The notes under the pieces were generated by a model. That model was not told the origin of the DNA, did no database searches, and saw nothing but the letters and a program-made list of their open reading frames with translations. This document shows, piece by piece, positions 3,788-19,837 of a stretch of DNA of 30,891 nucleotides. Origin of the DNA: a virus; the IMG/VR virus record IMGVR_UViG_3300041411_000163, positions 1-30,891 of that record; one strand, given 5' to 3'. The stretch's first letter is position 1. Each line of letters begins with the position of its first letter. The translations under genes were made by a program, and so were the position numbers.

Positions 3788-4590
3788 AGACCATCCTGAA
3801 ATGGGTCGGCAGCAAGTCCGGCCTGATGCCTGAGCTGATTAAGCACCTGCCCGCCGGTAATCGTCTGGTTGAGCCGTTTGCCGGTTCCTGTGCTGTCATG
3901 ATGAATACGGATTACCCGGCTTATCTGGTGGCGGATGTTAATCCCGATCTGATTAACCTTTATCGCCAGGTTAAAGAGCATACGCGCCCGTTTATTGTTG
4001 TGGCGGCCTCGCTCTTCAATCAGAACAAAACTGAAGAGAGTTATTATAAGGTTCGCAATGACTTCAATTTCACCGCGTCGCTGCCACTGCTGGAACGTGC
4101 TGCACAATTCCTCTACCTGAACCGCCATGGCTATCGTGGCCTTTGCCGATATAACAAGCGCGGTGAATTCAATAACCCTTACGGCAATTATAAAGAGCCA
4201 TATTTCCCGCTGGCCGAAATCGAAGCGTTTGCCGTAAAGGCTCAGCGCGCGACATTTGAATGTCTGGGGTACAGCGAAACCCTGAACATGGTCCGTGCCG
4301 GGGATGTCGTTTACTGCGATCCGCCGTATCACGGCACATTCACCGCTTATCACACCGATGGGTTCAGCGACGATGATCAGCACTCGCTGGCCTGCATCCT
4401 GCTGGGTATCTCTGATCGTAACCCGGTCATCGTTTCAAACAGCGATAACCTGTTTACCCGCAGTATATTCCGCGAATTTGTACTGACAAAAATCAGCGCT
4501 TCCCGCTCTGTTGGCGTGGCTGCCGGACAGGGTAAGCGCGCAGCGGAAATTATTGCTGTCCGCCATCTTCAACATATGGCTTCAATGTGA
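3784..4590 (+). CDS. dam: DNA adenine N6-methyltransferase (Dam-like)
   Basis: This 268-aa protein has the D12 class alpha methylase layout: KWVGSK (6-11), SAM-binding motif PFAGS (31-35), YLNRHGYRGLCRYN (111-124), and catalytic DPPY at 179-182. These are the features of GATC-type Dam enzymes such as those of E. coli and P1/T4, so the likely product is N6-methyladenine, probably in GATC, but target specificity cannot be read from sequence. No cognate restriction enzyme is nearby, so this is a solitary methylase, useful for protecting phage DNA or mimicking host methylation. It overlaps the preceding and following genes by a few bases. Confidence 0.93.
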   Translation: MKTILKWVGSKSGLMPELIKHLPAGNRLVEPFAGSCAVMMNTDYPAYLVADVNPDLINLYRQVKEHTRPFIVVAASLFNQNKTEESYYKVRNDFNFTASLPLLERAAQFLYLNRHGYRGLCRYNKRGEFNNPYGNYKEPYFPLAEIEAFAVKAQRATFECLGYSETLNMVRAGDVVYCDPPYHGTFTAYHTDGFSDDDQHSLACILLGISDRNPVIVSNSDNLFTRSIFREFVLTKISASRSVGVAAGQGKRAAEIIAVRHLQHMASM

Positions 4591-6593
4591 CCGATATTGC
4601 CGTAAACGCTGCTGAGTCAAATAGTGACTATCACGCTGCCCTGAAAATGCAGCGTGAGAATTATGGCGTCAGAACGCCGCGTGACATGACCCTGGCTGAG
4701 TTGAAGCTGTGGAACGCTAACCCCGATGACCACGGGTGGCGGAGCCAGTACCTGCATGACATGCCTGACTATCTAGCCGGTTATTTCGCTGACCGCTATC
4801 AAAAAATCCTTTCAGGAAAACATGGCCGTCGACGAGCCAATGCGTTTCTGCGCCAGACCATCGGCCAAAGCGTATTGCCGCGTCTGCAGCTTGTACGCAG
4901 TCGCTACCGGTTAAACGATGCGGCGCAGTTTGAGCTGCCCTTTATCAGACAGCTTGATCGCCTTCCGACGCTGGACCGCCAGGATATTCGCGATCTGGCT
5001 TATAAGGTGGCCTCCTTCCTGTCACAAAGTCTGGCTGAGTTCGTTGATAAGGTCTCCATGCCACATGAGGCGGACGAACTGGCTGTGACGCTCACCGGAT
5101 ACCGTTACATCGCTGAACTGGCTGCGCTGACAGGAACGCAGCCACCTTACTGGGCAGAGTTCTGTTCAGCTAAAGGTGAATTGCCTCTGCGCAAAGCCCA
5201 GTCTGGTCTGCTTCGCATGATGGCTCCTGAATGGTGGCGTGGCCGCCTGAAGCAGATGCGAGATTTCCAGCGTGAACACATGGCTATCGCGGTTGGGCAG
5301 GTACAGAAAGCCGCATCACCTTACGTTTCCCGCAGTACGCTGGCCGAATGGATTGAGCAGAAAAAACGTAACCGCGAATTCTTCAAACGCTTTGATCTCA
5401 TCAATCAGGAGGGGGACCGTATTGCGCTGGATGAAATGGTCAACCGCAGCGTGTCCAATCCTGCAATACGCCGCCGCGAACTGATGACACGAATGCGCGG
5501 GTTTGAAGATGTCGCCAATGAAACAGGGTGCGTAGGTGAATTTTATACAATTACAGCGCCATCACGTTATCACGCAGTTTACAGCCAGGGCGGCTTTGTT
5601 TCTCAGTGGAACGGTTCAAGCCCACGCGACACCCAGCGTTATCTCTGCCGCGTATGGGCGCGGATCCGCGCGGCTCTTGCCCGCGAAGATATTCATGTCT
5701 TCGGCTTTCGAGTTGTTGAACCTCACCACGACGGGACGCCGCACTGGCACATGCTGTTGTTTATGCTTCCTGAAAACGTCCAACGGGTTCAGCACATCAT
5801 GCGTGAGCAGGCTTATAAAGAGGATTCCGGTGAGCTGAACACGCCGCAGGCAATGAAAGCACGATTTCATGCTGAGCCGATCGACCCAGAGAAGGGTAGT
5901 GCTACAGGCTATATCGCCAAATATATTTCAAAAAACATCGACGGTTACGCGATGGAAGGCGAGAAAGATGATGAAACCGGCGCAAATATGCGCGACATGG
6001 CTAAGGCTGTTTCGGCATGGGCTTCACGCTGGCGTATTCGTCAATTTCAGCAGATCGCCGGTGCGCCTGTGACTGTCTGGCGTGAGCTGCGCCGTATGGG
6101 TGATGCACGTCTGCCAGATAAGCAGATGGATGCGGTGCTGGCGTCAGCTTCCGTTGCCAGCTGTTGGGCGTCCTATACGATGGCGCAGGGCGGGCCGTTA
6201 GTTGCGCGTGAGGATTTAGTTATCCGCCTTTGCTATGAACTTACCGAAATGGGTAATGAGTACGGCGAAGATGTTCAGCGGGTGCAGGGTATCTATTCGC
6301 CGATGGTACCGGATTCAGAAGTTATGACGCGCCTAGTCAAGTGGGAAAAGGTTGCTAAATTGGCCGAAGTGTCAGCGGAGGCTGGTTTTTCTGGCGGCAT
6401 TGCCGCCCCTTGGAGTTCTGTCAATAACTGTACGGGGCCACAGATCAGGCGGTTAGAGCTGGAACTAAAAGCCAGAGGTTTTAATGGCAGCGATGAGGAA
6501 ATTAAGCTGCTTTTACAGGGATGTAATCTCAATGCGGGAGCAAATATGCGATTGTTTTTTGATAAGGGCAGACTGCAAGAGGCAAGGCTGTAG
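4587..6593 (+). CDS. A: Rolling-circle replication initiator A (HUH endonuclease)
   Basis: This 668-aa protein starts with GTG overlapping the dam stop (ATGTGA). It carries the HUH metal-binding motif HWH at 386-388 (in EPHHDGTPHWHMLLF) and two catalytic tyrosines, Y442 and Y446, in GYIAKYISKN, the YxxxY arrangement of P2 gpA. One tyrosine nicks the origin and stays covalently bound to the 5' end; the other closes the circle after one round. In P2 the nick site lies within gene A itself; I did not find a recognisable copy here. The N-terminal ~300 residues are the conserved P2-A region. Full length, no frameshift. Confidence 0.95.
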   Translation: MTDIAVNAAESNSDYHAALKMQRENYGVRTPRDMTLAELKLWNANPDDHGWRSQYLHDMPDYLAGYFADRYQKILSGKHGRRRANAFLRQTIGQSVLPRLQLVRSRYRLNDAAQFELPFIRQLDRLPTLDRQDIRDLAYKVASFLSQSLAEFVDKVSMPHEADELAVTLTGYRYIAELAALTGTQPPYWAEFCSAKGELPLRKAQSGLLRMMAPEWWRGRLKQMRDFQREHMAIAVGQVQKAASPYVSRSTLAEWIEQKKRNREFFKRFDLINQEGDRIALDEMVNRSVSNPAIRRRELMTRMRGFEDVANETGCVGEFYTITAPSRYHAVYSQGGFVSQWNGSSPRDTQRYLCRVWARIRAALAREDIHVFGFRVVEPHHDGTPHWHMLLFMLPENVQRVQHIMREQAYKEDSGELNTPQAMKARFHAEPIDPEKGSATGYIAKYISKNIDGYAMEGEKDDETGANMRDMAKAVSAWASRWRIRQFQQIAGAPVTVWRELRRMGDARLPDKQMDAVLASASVASCWASYTMAQGGPLVAREDLVIRLCYELTEMGNEYGEDVQRVQGIYSPMVPDSEVMTRLVKWEKVAKLAEVSAEAGFSGGIAAPWSSVNNCTGPQIRRLELELKARGFNGSDEEIKLLLQGCNLNAGANMRLFFDKGRLQEARL

Positions 6594-7815: not shown

Positions 7816-8556
7816 TCAATCTTCAAATTTGTCACTTAATCGCTTCGTTAGGACTTCAACTGATTCTTTCCTGCCTGAAAACAAATCGTTAACTACGTAT
7901 TCCATAATTTCAAACGCATCTTCAATGTCTTTAATTATAACTTTATCGTAGGTATGACTCCCTGCATTACCTAAAAATTTTATAGCCATAAGAGGGTCCT
8001 TAAAAGATATATATAACTCTGGTAACATCCCTAGGCGTTTATGTAGATTGATGCGTCTATCTTTGTCGTTTTTTTCAGTAACTCCCATAGCCGTAAGCAT
8101 TCGTTCAACTGAAATTCTAATGAGATTCGCTGCTGAACCGGGCTGTATCAAAAAGACAGAAAAAGCAGCTTGAAGTGGTTCGGTGATTTCTTCAGGACAT
8201 TTGGTAGGAAGCTCGAAAGGATGCAATGACGGAAAAAAGCTTTTAGGATGAAACCACTGGTAATACCCATCACCAGACATCTCGTCATCCCAATCATGTC
8301 GTTCCCATCCACTATTGCCTAAACAGGCTACAACCTCACCGCATTGTCTTCTTGAGCAGCTTGCCATGCAGCTAAAAATTGACACATCCATTTCTGGCTC
8401 AAACCAAGATTCGCTACTGTGTTTCTTGGTATCGTGTGTTTCATTAACAAGTAAACTTTCAGGAATGATAAGCAGTGTTTTCTGACCGCATTGCGGGCAG
8501 GGCCATTCCACCTGCAAGTCTTTGAAAAATGCTCCAGAAATTTTGTTAATAGACAT
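7816..8556 (-). CDS. DUF4145-domain accessory protein (candidate defence/exclusion gene)
   Basis: This 246-aa protein starts at the ATG at 8556, which has GGAG 8 nt upstream; the longer start at 8634 lacks any ribosome site. The N-terminal part has a likely zinc finger, C20-P-Q-C23, followed by more cysteines at 63, 67, 72 and 78. The C-terminal half (about 125-230) matches DUF4145: LIRISVERML (145-154), KFLGNAGSH (193-201, the conserved GN...H) and a terminal helix DAFEIMEYVV. DUF4145 appears on type I restriction subunits and in stand-alone accessory proteins; its activity is not established. It is AT-rich, on the opposite strand, and occupies the P2 tin/old position, so it is probably cargo expressed in the lysogen. 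Confidence 0.8.
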   Translation of the reverse strand: MSINKISGAFFKDLQVEWPCPQCGQKTLLIIPESLLVNETHDTKKHSSESWFEPEMDVSIFSCMASCSRRQCGEVVACLGNSGWERHDWDDEMSGDGYYQWFHPKSFFPSLHPFELPTKCPEEITEPLQAAFSVFLIQPGSAANLIRISVERMLTAMGVTEKNDKDRRINLHKRLGMLPELYISFKDPLMAIKFLGNAGSHTYDKVIIKDIEDAFEIMEYVVNDLFSGRKESVEVLTKRLSDKFED

Positions 8557-9129
8557 TCTTGGTTCTCCAAGTTCATTAGTGAGTATGTTTTTTGCGCTAA
8601 ATTTTTGATTATTGATGAAACTAAAATATGCCATAACAGCGTGTTTAAAAAGAGCAATATGAAAAGACCTATGGTATGCCGTTCATCGTTTTGCGAAACG
8701 GCAGTTACTGCATGACTATGCTGCATGGATCCGCATGATCGTTTGAGGAGCGTTTTGGCTGAGACCAGCCAGGATTGGCGGGCTTTTGCTTATGTCATGC
8801 AGCTGCATGAAAACCACTGCATAAAGCGGGCAGGCGTGGCGGGGCTACGAGCGCGCGCTATTATGTTCTGCAGTGGGAATTAGGCTATGTCAATGGCTCA
8901 TAGGTTGGTTGAAACTCAGAGGGTGGTTCGAAGCGGCTAAAAGAGAACACGCCCCACAGCATCCGGCGGAGGCGCTTAAAAAATATTTTGATAAGGATAA
9001 CAAACAGGCTGCAGGATCACGATTTTTTTGCTCAAAAAAATTAGATTGCAAATAAATAAAAGGATATATTTTTAGGTAAAAATATGATTGTTTTTTTAAT
9101 GCTAGGTATTAATTCGATGAGGAATGAAC
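8557..9129. other. 573-nt stretch around cos without a supported gene
   Basis: Holds the promoter side of the DUF4145 gene (8557-8700, AT-rich), an inverted repeat GCCGTT/AACGGC (8678-8702), the repeat-rich candidate cos region (8709-8844) and, from 9040 on, a very AT-rich leader for the next gene. From about 8845 to 9055 three frames give protein-like fragments, such as FEAAKREHAPQHPAEALKKY in the ORF opened by GTG 8873, but none has a start site or full-length gene. It may be a decayed remnant beside cos. Confidence 0.55.
8709..8844. other. cos: Candidate cos packaging site with TGCATGA repeats
   Basis: GGCGTGGCGGGG at 8833-8844 equals the first 12 bases of the 19-base cohesive end I recall for phage 186 (P2 has GGCGAGGCGGGG). 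It then diverges (CTACGAG). It lies between the early region and Q, as cos does in P2. The 125 bp before it repeat a TGCATGA-like word: 8709-8715, 8722-8728 (last base differs), 8732-8738 (first base differs), a perfect 16-bp palindrome 8795-8810 holding two inverted copies, and TGCATAA at 8818-8824. These could be terminase-binding sites. Confidence 0.6.
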
Positions 9130-10026
9130 ATGAAAAAAAACGCTGTAGCAATGAAAATAGAAAGAATCATGAGGCGAATAGCCGATAATACATTTGTTGA
9201 TAATGACATTTTAGTTTTACTGGTTACTCTTAGAGAGCTTGAAAAGGCTAGTATTCATATATTTGAAATTGGTTGCTTTGTTGCTCATTCAAATATAAGA
9301 GATAAAGGAATAATAAAGGATATTTTATTTAGAAACTACTGCATTTTTAAATTGCATTACGGAAGAGACAAGGAACTTATCCGCTCCAGAACAAGCAAGC
9401 TCCCTTATTACTTGCCTAAACTAATTCAATTGCAATGTAAAGCTATTGGAAATGAAGCATTGAGTGCGAAGTTGCAGGTAAGCATTACAAAACTGGTACA
9501 GATGATCAAAACAATATGCTCTGAAAAAACATTAAAGGTTGAAGGTGATTATTGTTACTTACAGCGGGAGCTTGATGAGTTAGAGAATAGACTTGTAAGT
9601 AATTGCTTATCTCATCTTTATACCTTTGGCGGAATAAGTTTAGATGAACTTATTAACCAAATGAGACAATTGATTAGTATAGAAAATTCAGGCATTGATA
9701 CTCAGCCTCTAGAAGACAGAAAAAGAGAAATTTTTTGTGCTATAGCATGCCTCATGCACAATGTAGATTATGTTATTTCAACCAAGGAAAAAGTTAACGC
9801 CAAAACCATTATTGATTTTCCAAAAGCGGTAGAAGTGTGCGGTGTCTTTAATTTTGAAGTATATAATGACAAGTTTGAGAAAGAGAAAGAGATCAATATC
9901 ATGTTTTCGGTTTTGCAATCCAATTTTTCTATAGAGGAAATTTTCTGTGATAACGTGACTCACGATGATATCAAAGAAGGTAATTTATTCTATATAAGTC
10001 AGGTTGGAAAAATTGGGAATTCATAA
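9130..10026 (+). CDS. Unrecognised 298-aa accessory protein (candidate defence/exclusion gene)
   Basis: I do not recognise a family. The start at 9130 is chosen because GAGGA (9119-9123) lies 6 nt before it; the ATG at 9124 touches that sequence. The protein is soluble, mostly helical and lysine-rich with no signal or membrane segment. The only motif-like stretch is CFVAHSNIRDKGII (about residues 45-58), followed by basic helices, a coiled-coil-like segment with REL and LENRL near 145-160, and a more beta-rich end. Codon use and AT-richness differ sharply from the flanking phage genes, indicating separate acquisition. It stands alone between cos and Q with its own terminator, the pattern of a moron. 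No function can be claimed. Confidence 0.75.
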   Translation: MKKNAVAMKIERIMRRIADNTFVDNDILVLLVTLRELEKASIHIFEIGCFVAHSNIRDKGIIKDILFRNYCIFKLHYGRDKELIRSRTSKLPYYLPKLIQLQCKAIGNEALSAKLQVSITKLVQMIKTICSEKTLKVEGDYCYLQRELDELENRLVSNCLSHLYTFGGISLDELINQMRQLISIENSGIDTQPLEDRKREIFCAIACLMHNVDYVISTKEKVNAKTIIDFPKAVEVCGVFNFEVYNDKFEKEKEINIMFSVLQSNFSIEEIFCDNVTHDDIKEGNLFYISQVGKIGNS

Positions 10027-10057
10027 CCCCCCCCTCAAGGGGCGGGGGTGATTTTTT
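10027..10057. terminator. Terminator between the accessory gene and Q
   Basis: A run of eight C (10027-10034), the loop TCAA and GGGGCGGGGG form a strong GC hairpin, followed by GATTTTTT on the plus strand (T-run 10052-10057). It terminates the rightward accessory gene, and as a hairpin between convergent genes may also slow leftward Q transcripts. Confidence 0.8.
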
Positions 10058-10076
10058 CAATTCAATTAGTTTTAAA

Positions 10077-11111
10077 TTAAGCTGATTCTAGGCTGTATGT
10101 TTCGAATTTGATTACTTCCTCACCTAACCAGTGATTCATTTCTTCTAAGCGCTTCTGTAATGGGATAAGTTCATTACGTACAAATACGCGGCTGGCCTTT
10201 TCCACGTCACCGAATCCGCCGGTGTTGTTCGGGATAATGCCCATCATCTGCGGCGGCACGCGGTGTGCCGCCATCATGTCATCGCGGCTCACGTTTTTGA
10301 TGTTCAGGAATTCATCCTTAGCTGCCACCTCTGACAGCGGAATGATCTGAATGCCGTCTTTCTTCCCGTTAGGTGAATACATAAACAGGTTGCGGAAGTT
10401 ACCCGGACCTTTCGCGCTTTTCATCGCTTTGCGGATGTTGTCCACGTCTTCCTGATTCTGTGCGGCGTCTGTCATATACATGATAAAGCCTGCATGGCTT
10501 CCGTTAAGATAATACTTGCGGCGAAACAGCGTGGCCGACTCATTCAGCAGAGTTGACGGAATGGCGGAGAGGTATTCCGGCAGGCCGTAAATCTCCTGAT
10601 TAAGGTCCGGCTCCATCAGGTGAAACACGCTGCCCGGCGTGAACTGGTAAGGCTGCGTGGTCAGGCCGTACTGTGCAAACCAGTAGGTGTCTAAATCGGT
10701 GCCGCGCCGGGTGAATTTTGCCAGCGATGGCTCAAGAGCAATCACGCCGCCCAGGCGGTTAGTCCGTTTCTCAAGGTAAGCGTTACCTAATACCAGATAG
10801 TCCTGAATGAAGCGGCTGAATGCCTGCCCGCTAAGCAGCCGGTGCGGAATAAACGTGCTGGTCAGGATGTTGCGCTTTACGTTCAGCGGTGAGCTGTGAT
10901 GCACGGCTGCGCGGAACGTGCGCGCCAGCCCGTCAAAACTCACCGGCGGCTCATACCACCTGTCCAGCACAACGCATTCCACGTAGTCCAGCAGTTCGCG
11001 GCGGTCCAGCACCGGGATAGGGTCCCCAAAGGTGAACGCTTCCGCCGCCGGGCCGCCGGTCATCTGCTCCGGCACGGGCTGCGTGCGCGTGCGGTTCCTG
11101 CGTTTGCTCAT
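10077..11111 (-). CDS. Q: Portal protein
   Basis: This 344-aa protein has the same length as P2 gpQ and the same start style (MSKRRNRTR). It forms the dodecameric portal ring through which DNA enters the capsid. Recognisable P2-portal features include LLDYVECVVLDRWYEPPVS (about 40-58), SRFIQDYLVLGNAYLE (near 100-115) and the conserved RDDMMAAHRVPPQMMGIIP (near 285-303). Its ATG directly abuts the stop codon of P (TAAATG), so the two are translated from one leftward late transcript. It ends facing the accessory gene across a terminator. Confidence 0.97.
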   Translation of the reverse strand: MSKRRNRTRTQPVPEQMTGGPAAEAFTFGDPIPVLDRRELLDYVECVVLDRWYEPPVSFDGLARTFRAAVHHSSPLNVKRNILTSTFIPHRLLSGQAFSRFIQDYLVLGNAYLEKRTNRLGGVIALEPSLAKFTRRGTDLDTYWFAQYGLTTQPYQFTPGSVFHLMEPDLNQEIYGLPEYLSAIPSTLLNESATLFRRKYYLNGSHAGFIMYMTDAAQNQEDVDNIRKAMKSAKGPGNFRNLFMYSPNGKKDGIQIIPLSEVAAKDEFLNIKNVSRDDMMAAHRVPPQMMGIIPNNTGGFGDVEKASRVFVRNELIPLQKRLEEMNHWLGEEVIKFETYSLESA

Positions 11112-18853: not shown

Positions 18854-18859
18854 TTTCAC
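18843..18859. terminator. Palindrome spanning the S and accessory-gene stop codons
   Basis: GTGAAAC (18843-18849), loop TTA, GTTTCAC (18853-18859). An outer inverted pair, TTAAGTG and CACTTAA (about 18839-18845 and 18866-18872), extends the symmetry. It sits between two converging genes. There is no T-run, so intrinsic termination is uncertain. Confidence 0.4.
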
Positions 18860-19749
18860 AAACGCCACTTAACTACTTTGCTTAAAGGGTGGTTGCTTTT
18901 AGCCCATCTGGCTAGATCACCTATTATCCCTTTTTCATCAAGAAAAATATCAGCAGTATATGGACTGATATAAGGGGACATTTCGCTAACAGGAACATCA
19001 TGCTTTATGAGTTCATCTCTGAACTCATAATTCCAGTTTGCAAGAGCTGCGATTTTTAAGGCTACATTTGTGTTCTTTAACTTATGGTAAATTTTTTTGG
19101 CATCATCCAGTTTACATCTCTCCCCTAAAGTAACGCTCATTATTGCTTCAAGAGGTATGTCCATTGTGTAGATGTCATATTTATTACCTGAAGTTTTGAT
19201 CCGCTTGCAGTCCTTTAATGATCGAGCTAAACGCCACTCTTTTTCATAATTCCATATATTTGATTTAGCGCATAGCTCTGAAATTGGTAAGGGTTCACCG
19301 CTTAGAAAGTAATCCATATGCAATTTAGGTCTGTTCTGAATATATTCAATCTCAAATGCACCTTGGAAAAACTCATGGAATTCGTCGAATTCAATTACAG
19401 CGCCAGAGTACTCACACGCATAATGCGCCCACATCAAATGAGAGCTTTGATTTTTTGTAATGCATAACATACCTACTGTACTGTCAATTTTCGATCTCAA
19501 TTCACGAGCATAAACATCATTGCAATTATCATGAGTGAATTCTGATGGAAGTAAGTATTTCTTTATATCTCTGGTTTGAGAAAGCACATCAAAACGCAAC
19601 TCGATATTTCCCTCCATCCCAATGTGCGGGTTATAAACTTCAACAGCAAGTTCGAATGGATCATTAAAAGCCCCTGGCTGAGTAAGGCGGATACTTCCTG
19701 CAAGGATTTTCTGAAGCGTGTCAATGCTGACGTATTTATAGAAGGACAT
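18856..19749 (-). CDS. DUF2971 accessory protein (candidate defence/exclusion gene)
   Basis: This 297-aa protein starts at the ATG at 19749 with CAGGT upstream; a TTG-initiated form reaching 19803 would run through the Ogr site and is rejected. DUF2971 landmarks are present in order: MSFYKYVS start, LTQPGAFNDPFE (22-33), GMLCITKNQSSHLMWAHYA (93-111), GAVIEFD (116-122) and NYEKEWR (167-173). No signal or membrane segment. The biochemical role of DUF2971 is not settled to my knowledge. The gene is AT-rich, inverted, and sits exactly between S and V, where P2 carries the non-essential orf30, so it is cargo. Its promoter must lie close to or within the Ogr-site region of V. Confidence 0.82.
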   Translation of the reverse strand: MSFYKYVSIDTLQKILAGSIRLTQPGAFNDPFELAVEVYNPHIGMEGNIELRFDVLSQTRDIKKYLLPSEFTHDNCNDVYARELRSKIDSTVGMLCITKNQSSHLMWAHYACEYSGAVIEFDEFHEFFQGAFEIEYIQNRPKLHMDYFLSGEPLPISELCAKSNIWNYEKEWRLARSLKDCKRIKTSGNKYDIYTMDIPLEAIMSVTLGERCKLDDAKKIYHKLKNTNVALKIAALANWNYEFRDELIKHDVPVSEMSPYISPYTADIFLDEKGIIGDLARWAKSNHPLSKVVKWRL

Positions 19750-19772
19750 TGCCGACCTGCTTTGTAGTGACG

Positions 19773-19792
19773 TTGTGTGAGTCTCCACACAA
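19773..19792. promoter_or_regulatory. Ogr/Delta activator site upstream of V
   Basis: TTGTGTGAGTCTCCACACAA is a perfect 7-bp inverted repeat over a 6-bp centre and satisfies TGT-N12-ACA. Its centre lies 55.5 bp from the V start codon and 33.5 bp from the DUF2971 start codon on the other side, so it marks the start of the V-G late operon and may also influence the accessory gene. Confidence 0.87.
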
Positions 19793-19837
19793 TACCATGT
19801 CAATGATTGCTTTCAATTTTGAAGGCATCTTTCCTGC

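Follow-up and report, generated by a model that had tools for sequence, protein, structure and literature searches.

The 298-aa open reading frame (ORF) at positions 9130–10026 (plus strand, stop codon included) of the window, the whole 30,891-nucleotide stretch of viral DNA analysed here (IMG/VR record IMGVR_UViG_3300041411_000163), is a real, complete and uncharacterised cargo gene of a P2-type prophage. The closest annotated relatives of the prophage over the head genes are Salmonella SopEPhi, SEN8 and Fels-2 (~77%). The product is most likely a self-contained lysogenic-conversion protein, namely a nucleic-acid-binding, single-protein phage-exclusion factor expressed by the lysogen, a reading that we hold with slightly better than even confidence. 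The observed grounds for it are the position of the gene in a defined slot, the occurrence of its relatives in the same interval of related phages, its wholesale replacement by other cargo, the spread of the family over unrelated mobile elements and purifying selection. Cargo of such hotspots has repeatedly yielded new phage-defence proteins.

The open frame was confirmed, and a run of 298 codons without a stop would arise with a probability of ~2e-12 given the local base composition; the ORF call, a profile match to phrog_29586 and purifying selection in the relatives all identify it as a gene. An AGGA ribosome-binding site, read from the sequence, occupies 9120–9123 (plus strand), 6 nt before the ATG at 9130. 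This ATG, and not the one at 9124, was taken as the start, because the latter lies too near the AGGA and the relatives also begin with M-K/N-K. Between the gene and the convergent portal gene Q lies an intrinsic terminator-like hairpin and its T run (10026–10060, plus strand); the hairpin proper (10031–10048; -18.3 kcal/mol, z -2.2) is 3′ of the stop codon. No consensus σ70 promoter was found upstream of the gene on the plus strand. The GC content of the gene is 32.4%, compared with 55.3% for Q and 53.6% for the replication gene A (gpA). The first-pass annotation, made from the sequence without database searches, had described a gene with a good ribosome site, its own terminator and a composition far from that of its neighbours, and these features agree with that description.

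The left border of the slot is gpA (4587–6593, plus strand; Pfam Phage_GPA, 1.6e-112) and the right border is Q (10077–11111, minus strand). Between them, a block at 8706–8859 is 85–90% conserved in 73 P2-like phage records and contains a cos-like 19-mer at 8833–8851 (plus strand; GGCGTGGCGGGGCTACGAG), which is one base off its Fels-2 counterpart and bears a recognisable likeness to the annotated cosR of P2. The 298-aa gene adjoins this cos-like site on the Q side, so that its placement between cos and the portal gene was borne out. It had also been assigned to the tin/old region of P2, which is correct in that the gpA–Q hotspot is the same, but P2's own tin and old lie on the opposite side of cos. 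In the gpA–cos–Q interval of Fels-2, SopEPhi, 813R9, 500465-1 and p13P477T-2, unrelated genes stand in place of the 298-aa gene, and the same applies to ST15-OXA48phi14.1, ST13-OXA48phi12.1 and 4LV2017. The cargo of these sibling phages comprises a TIR protein, an ATP-binding protein with RloB, a reverse transcriptase, a Ymh-domain protein and hypothetical proteins. These data indicate that the gpA–cos–Q interval is a true variable cargo hotspot, as the first-pass annotation had anticipated.

The expectation of a variable anti-phage locus also agrees with published work, in which the gpA–Q interval was described as an anti-phage hotspot (Rousset et al. 2022, PMC9122126). In E. coli, 1,650 arrangements were counted in 18,150 gpA–Q loci, and defence activity was found for old-tin and for three of eight newly cloned P2-hotspot systems (PMC9122126). 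The interval also accommodates cargo other than defence genes, such as a partition system in about one quarter of the E. coli P2-like loci and a toxin in ~2% of them (PMC9122126). Position alone is therefore no proof of defence, because only three of the eight cloned systems defended and because partition and toxin cargo occurs there; the hotspot position would make a defence role likely, not certain. From the slot, the exchange of cargo and the genes found alongside, we infer a defence role with somewhat better than even confidence.

Relatives were collected by tblastn, alignment scans, a degenerate motif pattern and profile search, and more than 20 distinct related loci were obtained. The window protein matched phrog_29586, a family of unknown function, over residues 1–295 of 298 (6e-55), as did all 23 aligned members, itself included (best, 7.9e-212). 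The gene had been put forward as undescribed, yet with this family and these loci it is not unique. The nearest relatives are 32–36% identical and belong to P2-type phages, where they occupy the gpA–Q interval wherever the flanks are present (L050, L053, L055, L057, L069 and the frameshifted L043); in the phylogenetic tree, the window gene and these relatives form one clade (support 100/100). In L043 (1423–2318), the relative in the gpA–Q slot is split by the frameshift into two overlapping ORFs. The family is rare: one of 369 gammaproteobacteria sampled was positive, this being the seed genome itself, and few positives beyond the seed genomes were obtained among ~1,270 genomes sampled. One subtype (at least 99% identity) is present in 25 of 5,426 complete E. 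coli genomes, where it is annotated as hypothetical. The dN/dS ratio was 0.05–0.32 in the pairs for which it was computable, many of them with saturated dS, and these values point to purifying selection on the family.

In the 23-member alignment, R35, E46, F50, A52, H53, G60 and P92 were invariant, and V51 and R57 at least nearly so. Except for P92, these residues lie in codons 35–60 (9232–9309, plus strand), within the N-terminal helical domain. When distant N-terminal relatives were added, F22, R35, E46, A52, H53 and G60 remained conserved, and the invariant polar residues thus persist across proteins that are only 15–20% identical. The conserved core of the family is contained in CFVAHSNIRDKG, the only motif-like stretch that had been singled out from the sequence. 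Nearly all members share the motif E-x3-[FY]-x-A-H-x3-[RK]-[DN]-x-G; in L076, the spacing from H to R is one residue shorter. An AlphaFold model built from 23 sequences (pLDDT 90, pTM 0.84) predicts four helices at the N-terminus, with the motif around the end of the third helix and the loop before the fourth. These are followed by a segment of HTH-like helices (residues 95–129) and a beta hairpin (135–144) in codons 89–144 (9394–9561, plus strand), and by a C-terminal domain of helices and a four-stranded beta region in codons 150–298 (9577–10023, plus strand). The protein is predicted to be soluble, as no transmembrane-like stretch is evident in its 298 aa.

Searches with Foldseek against the PDB (two AlphaFold models) and a viral library (first model), and with VIA-align, returned no credible fold match except weak HTH-like ones. 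In the Foldseek comparison, which the first-pass annotation had suggested, no PDB fold match was significant. HTH proteins matched residues ~90–165 with Z scores of 2.2–3.1, one family member matched HTH_3 at 0.079, and the isoelectric point of residues 89–150 is 8.5. Such matches to a predicted model (Z ~3) do not prove nucleic-acid binding, and the HTH-like segment is not the common core of the family, because N-terminal relatives of 242–244 aa (L075 and L088) do without it while keeping most of the motif. Profile comparison with these shorter relatives confirmed the N-terminal domain alone as shared (E 3e-9), and any kinship of the C-terminal halves is putative. A TIGR04255 protein (3.1e-42) is encoded near the 244-aa relative (L088, 5756–6547), and group II intron-like reverse transcriptase fragments lie farther off.

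If the product is a phage-exclusion factor, DNA or RNA would be bound through its HTH-like middle, and the candidate working site would be the N-terminal patch of R35, E46, H53 and R57, which might act as a metal-independent nuclease or recognise a ligand. Incoming phage might then be blocked directly or by halting the infected cell. Nuclease chemistry is a rather doubtful guess from the residue types, and the conserved R, E and H residues could be structural instead. It is conceivable, though on the whole we lean against it, that these proteins are anti-phage effectors of a new family, each acting alone through an N-terminal catalytic domain not described before (invariant R-E-H and a near-invariant R); the family would then move among phages, plasmids and integrons, and its HTH would be an optional targeting module. 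The HTH-like middle of this confident model, together with the lack of a match to a toxin or nuclease family, would also suit a cargo transcription regulator, which would bind DNA through that segment and alter host or prophage expression as a form of lysogenic conversion other than defence. We regard such a regulator as unlikely, given that the segment is missing from the 242–244-aa relatives; invariant residues such as R-E-H-R outside the HTH are also rare in regulators.

The protein and its relatives had no match in sequence searches of Pfam, NCBIfam, PADLOC and PDB, and no PADLOC-DB 2.0 model was matched at E 1 by the window protein and 14 relatives. The statement that no family could be named therefore stands for these collections, but not for phrog_29586, which supplies a family name only and no function. 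A match to a structural phage family, which had been named as a ground for abandoning the proposal, was not obtained, and no fold or sequence relative with known function was found in the databases searched. Literature searches by PHROG number and protein accession found nothing on the family. P2 old/tin and other gpA–Q cargo resemble the window gene in slot, in being accessory genes on a conserved backbone and in being carried by the lysogen (PMC9122126), whereas the window gene lies to the right of cos and P2 old/tin to the left. Profile comparisons with Tin, Old and 11 other cargo proteins were negative (probability at most 1%), as were those with the window's other cargo. A single-gene DUF4238 system from the P2 hotspot, validated against T7 (PMC9122126), shares with the window gene the same slot, a single protein and an unknown molecular function, but showed no profile similarity to the family (hhalign probability 0.03%). 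The pEK499_p136 HEPN family (PF18736) was considered because its small helical domain has an AH motif, but the profile comparison with one member was negative (probability 0.13%). The motif order is E-x6-H-x3-R here versus R-x4-6-H in HEPN, and the HEPN fold was not among the structure matches, although a missing match does not disprove such a fold. The family is uncharacterised, and the kind of prophage cargo that it represents is already known.

The genomic settings of the relatives are diverse. In the P2 phages of the E. coli type, of whose version WP_139506986 is an example, the family gene lies on the gpA side of cos, whereas that of the window lies on the Q side. In the prophages of E. 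coli 730V1 and CUVM53, the only annotated genes after gpA and before Q are one for a DUF3850 protein, then a 67-aa ORF and the family gene, the last being the principal cargo that separates gpA from cos. Phages that otherwise match L050 at ~97% identity have different genes in this interval (ParaMORC3 with Dcm, VbhT Fic, DUF4209, a reverse transcriptase and DUF4238), and unrelated genes therefore occupy the slot even in close relatives. In P2-like phages of the Pseudomonas type, the family gene is on the opposite strand, flanked by the tail genes W and V (both named from their ORFs), and in a second clade the family gene and a resident C5-methyltransferase gene stand head to head. Further relatives were located after umuDC-like genes in a prophage, on small plasmids, including three distant ones detected by tblastn, and in chromosomes. 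One distant N-terminal relative is an ORF near a chromosomal integron integrase (TIGR02249, 4e-143), and another lies near an HsdR C-terminal fragment, T5orf172, a Gp49/HTH pair and AbiEii. A short contig (L041, 201–4014) carries an AAA_15/OLD-like ATPase, a P2-like integrase and the start (63 residues) of a 54%-identical relative; this element is possibly rearranged or satellite-like, as there is no gpA between its genes.

The members borne by small plasmids or by an integron, those beside toxin–antitoxin genes, and a single gene with its own terminator would be compatible with a toxin or growth-control protein for the maintenance of mobile elements, either solitary or with a distant antitoxin. 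This seems quite unlikely, as no partner gene recurs across the different contexts of the family, and a lone toxin would hardly be retained intact under purifying selection without an antitoxin. A role in the phage's own cycle or in counter-defence upon entry, for instance anti-restriction, is very unlikely in our estimation: the gene does stand beside cos, near the end of the packaged DNA, and adjoins the C5-methyltransferase in one clade, but the family also occurs on plasmids and in an integron, and the methyltransferase is found without the family in 337 phage records. Using three family members, tblastn detected no relative in 50,697 phage records (a collection that may miss near relatives of the window), and the gene is probably dispensable, because it is missing from these records although the backbone is common. 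Its absence from the E. coli collections searched is subject to the same limit. A restriction partner of the adjacent methyltransferase was rejected, since the pairing is confined to one clade, and so was a plasmid replication protein, considered for a 5.3-kb plasmid that carries the family without an evident rep gene, because in another carrier the rep genes are distinct from it and phages carry the family as cargo.

For the phage-exclusion reading, the E. coli members, a motif that can be mutated and the presence of the HTH-like segment in some relatives but not in others make both defence and the domain responsible for it testable. The gene had been described as alone and complete; it is complete, but two further cargo genes of the window prophage match candidate defence models. 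One (7816–8634, minus strand; 38.7% GC) encodes a DUF4145 protein; it lies between gpA and cos, on the tin/old side, and its product matches the PD-T7-4 defence model weakly (1.6e-5) as well as phrog_1305. The third cargo gene (18856–19803, minus strand; 38.5% GC) encodes a DUF2971 protein that matches PDC-S31 defence-candidate models (3.3e-34) and is located among the tail genes, where S and V appear to flank it.
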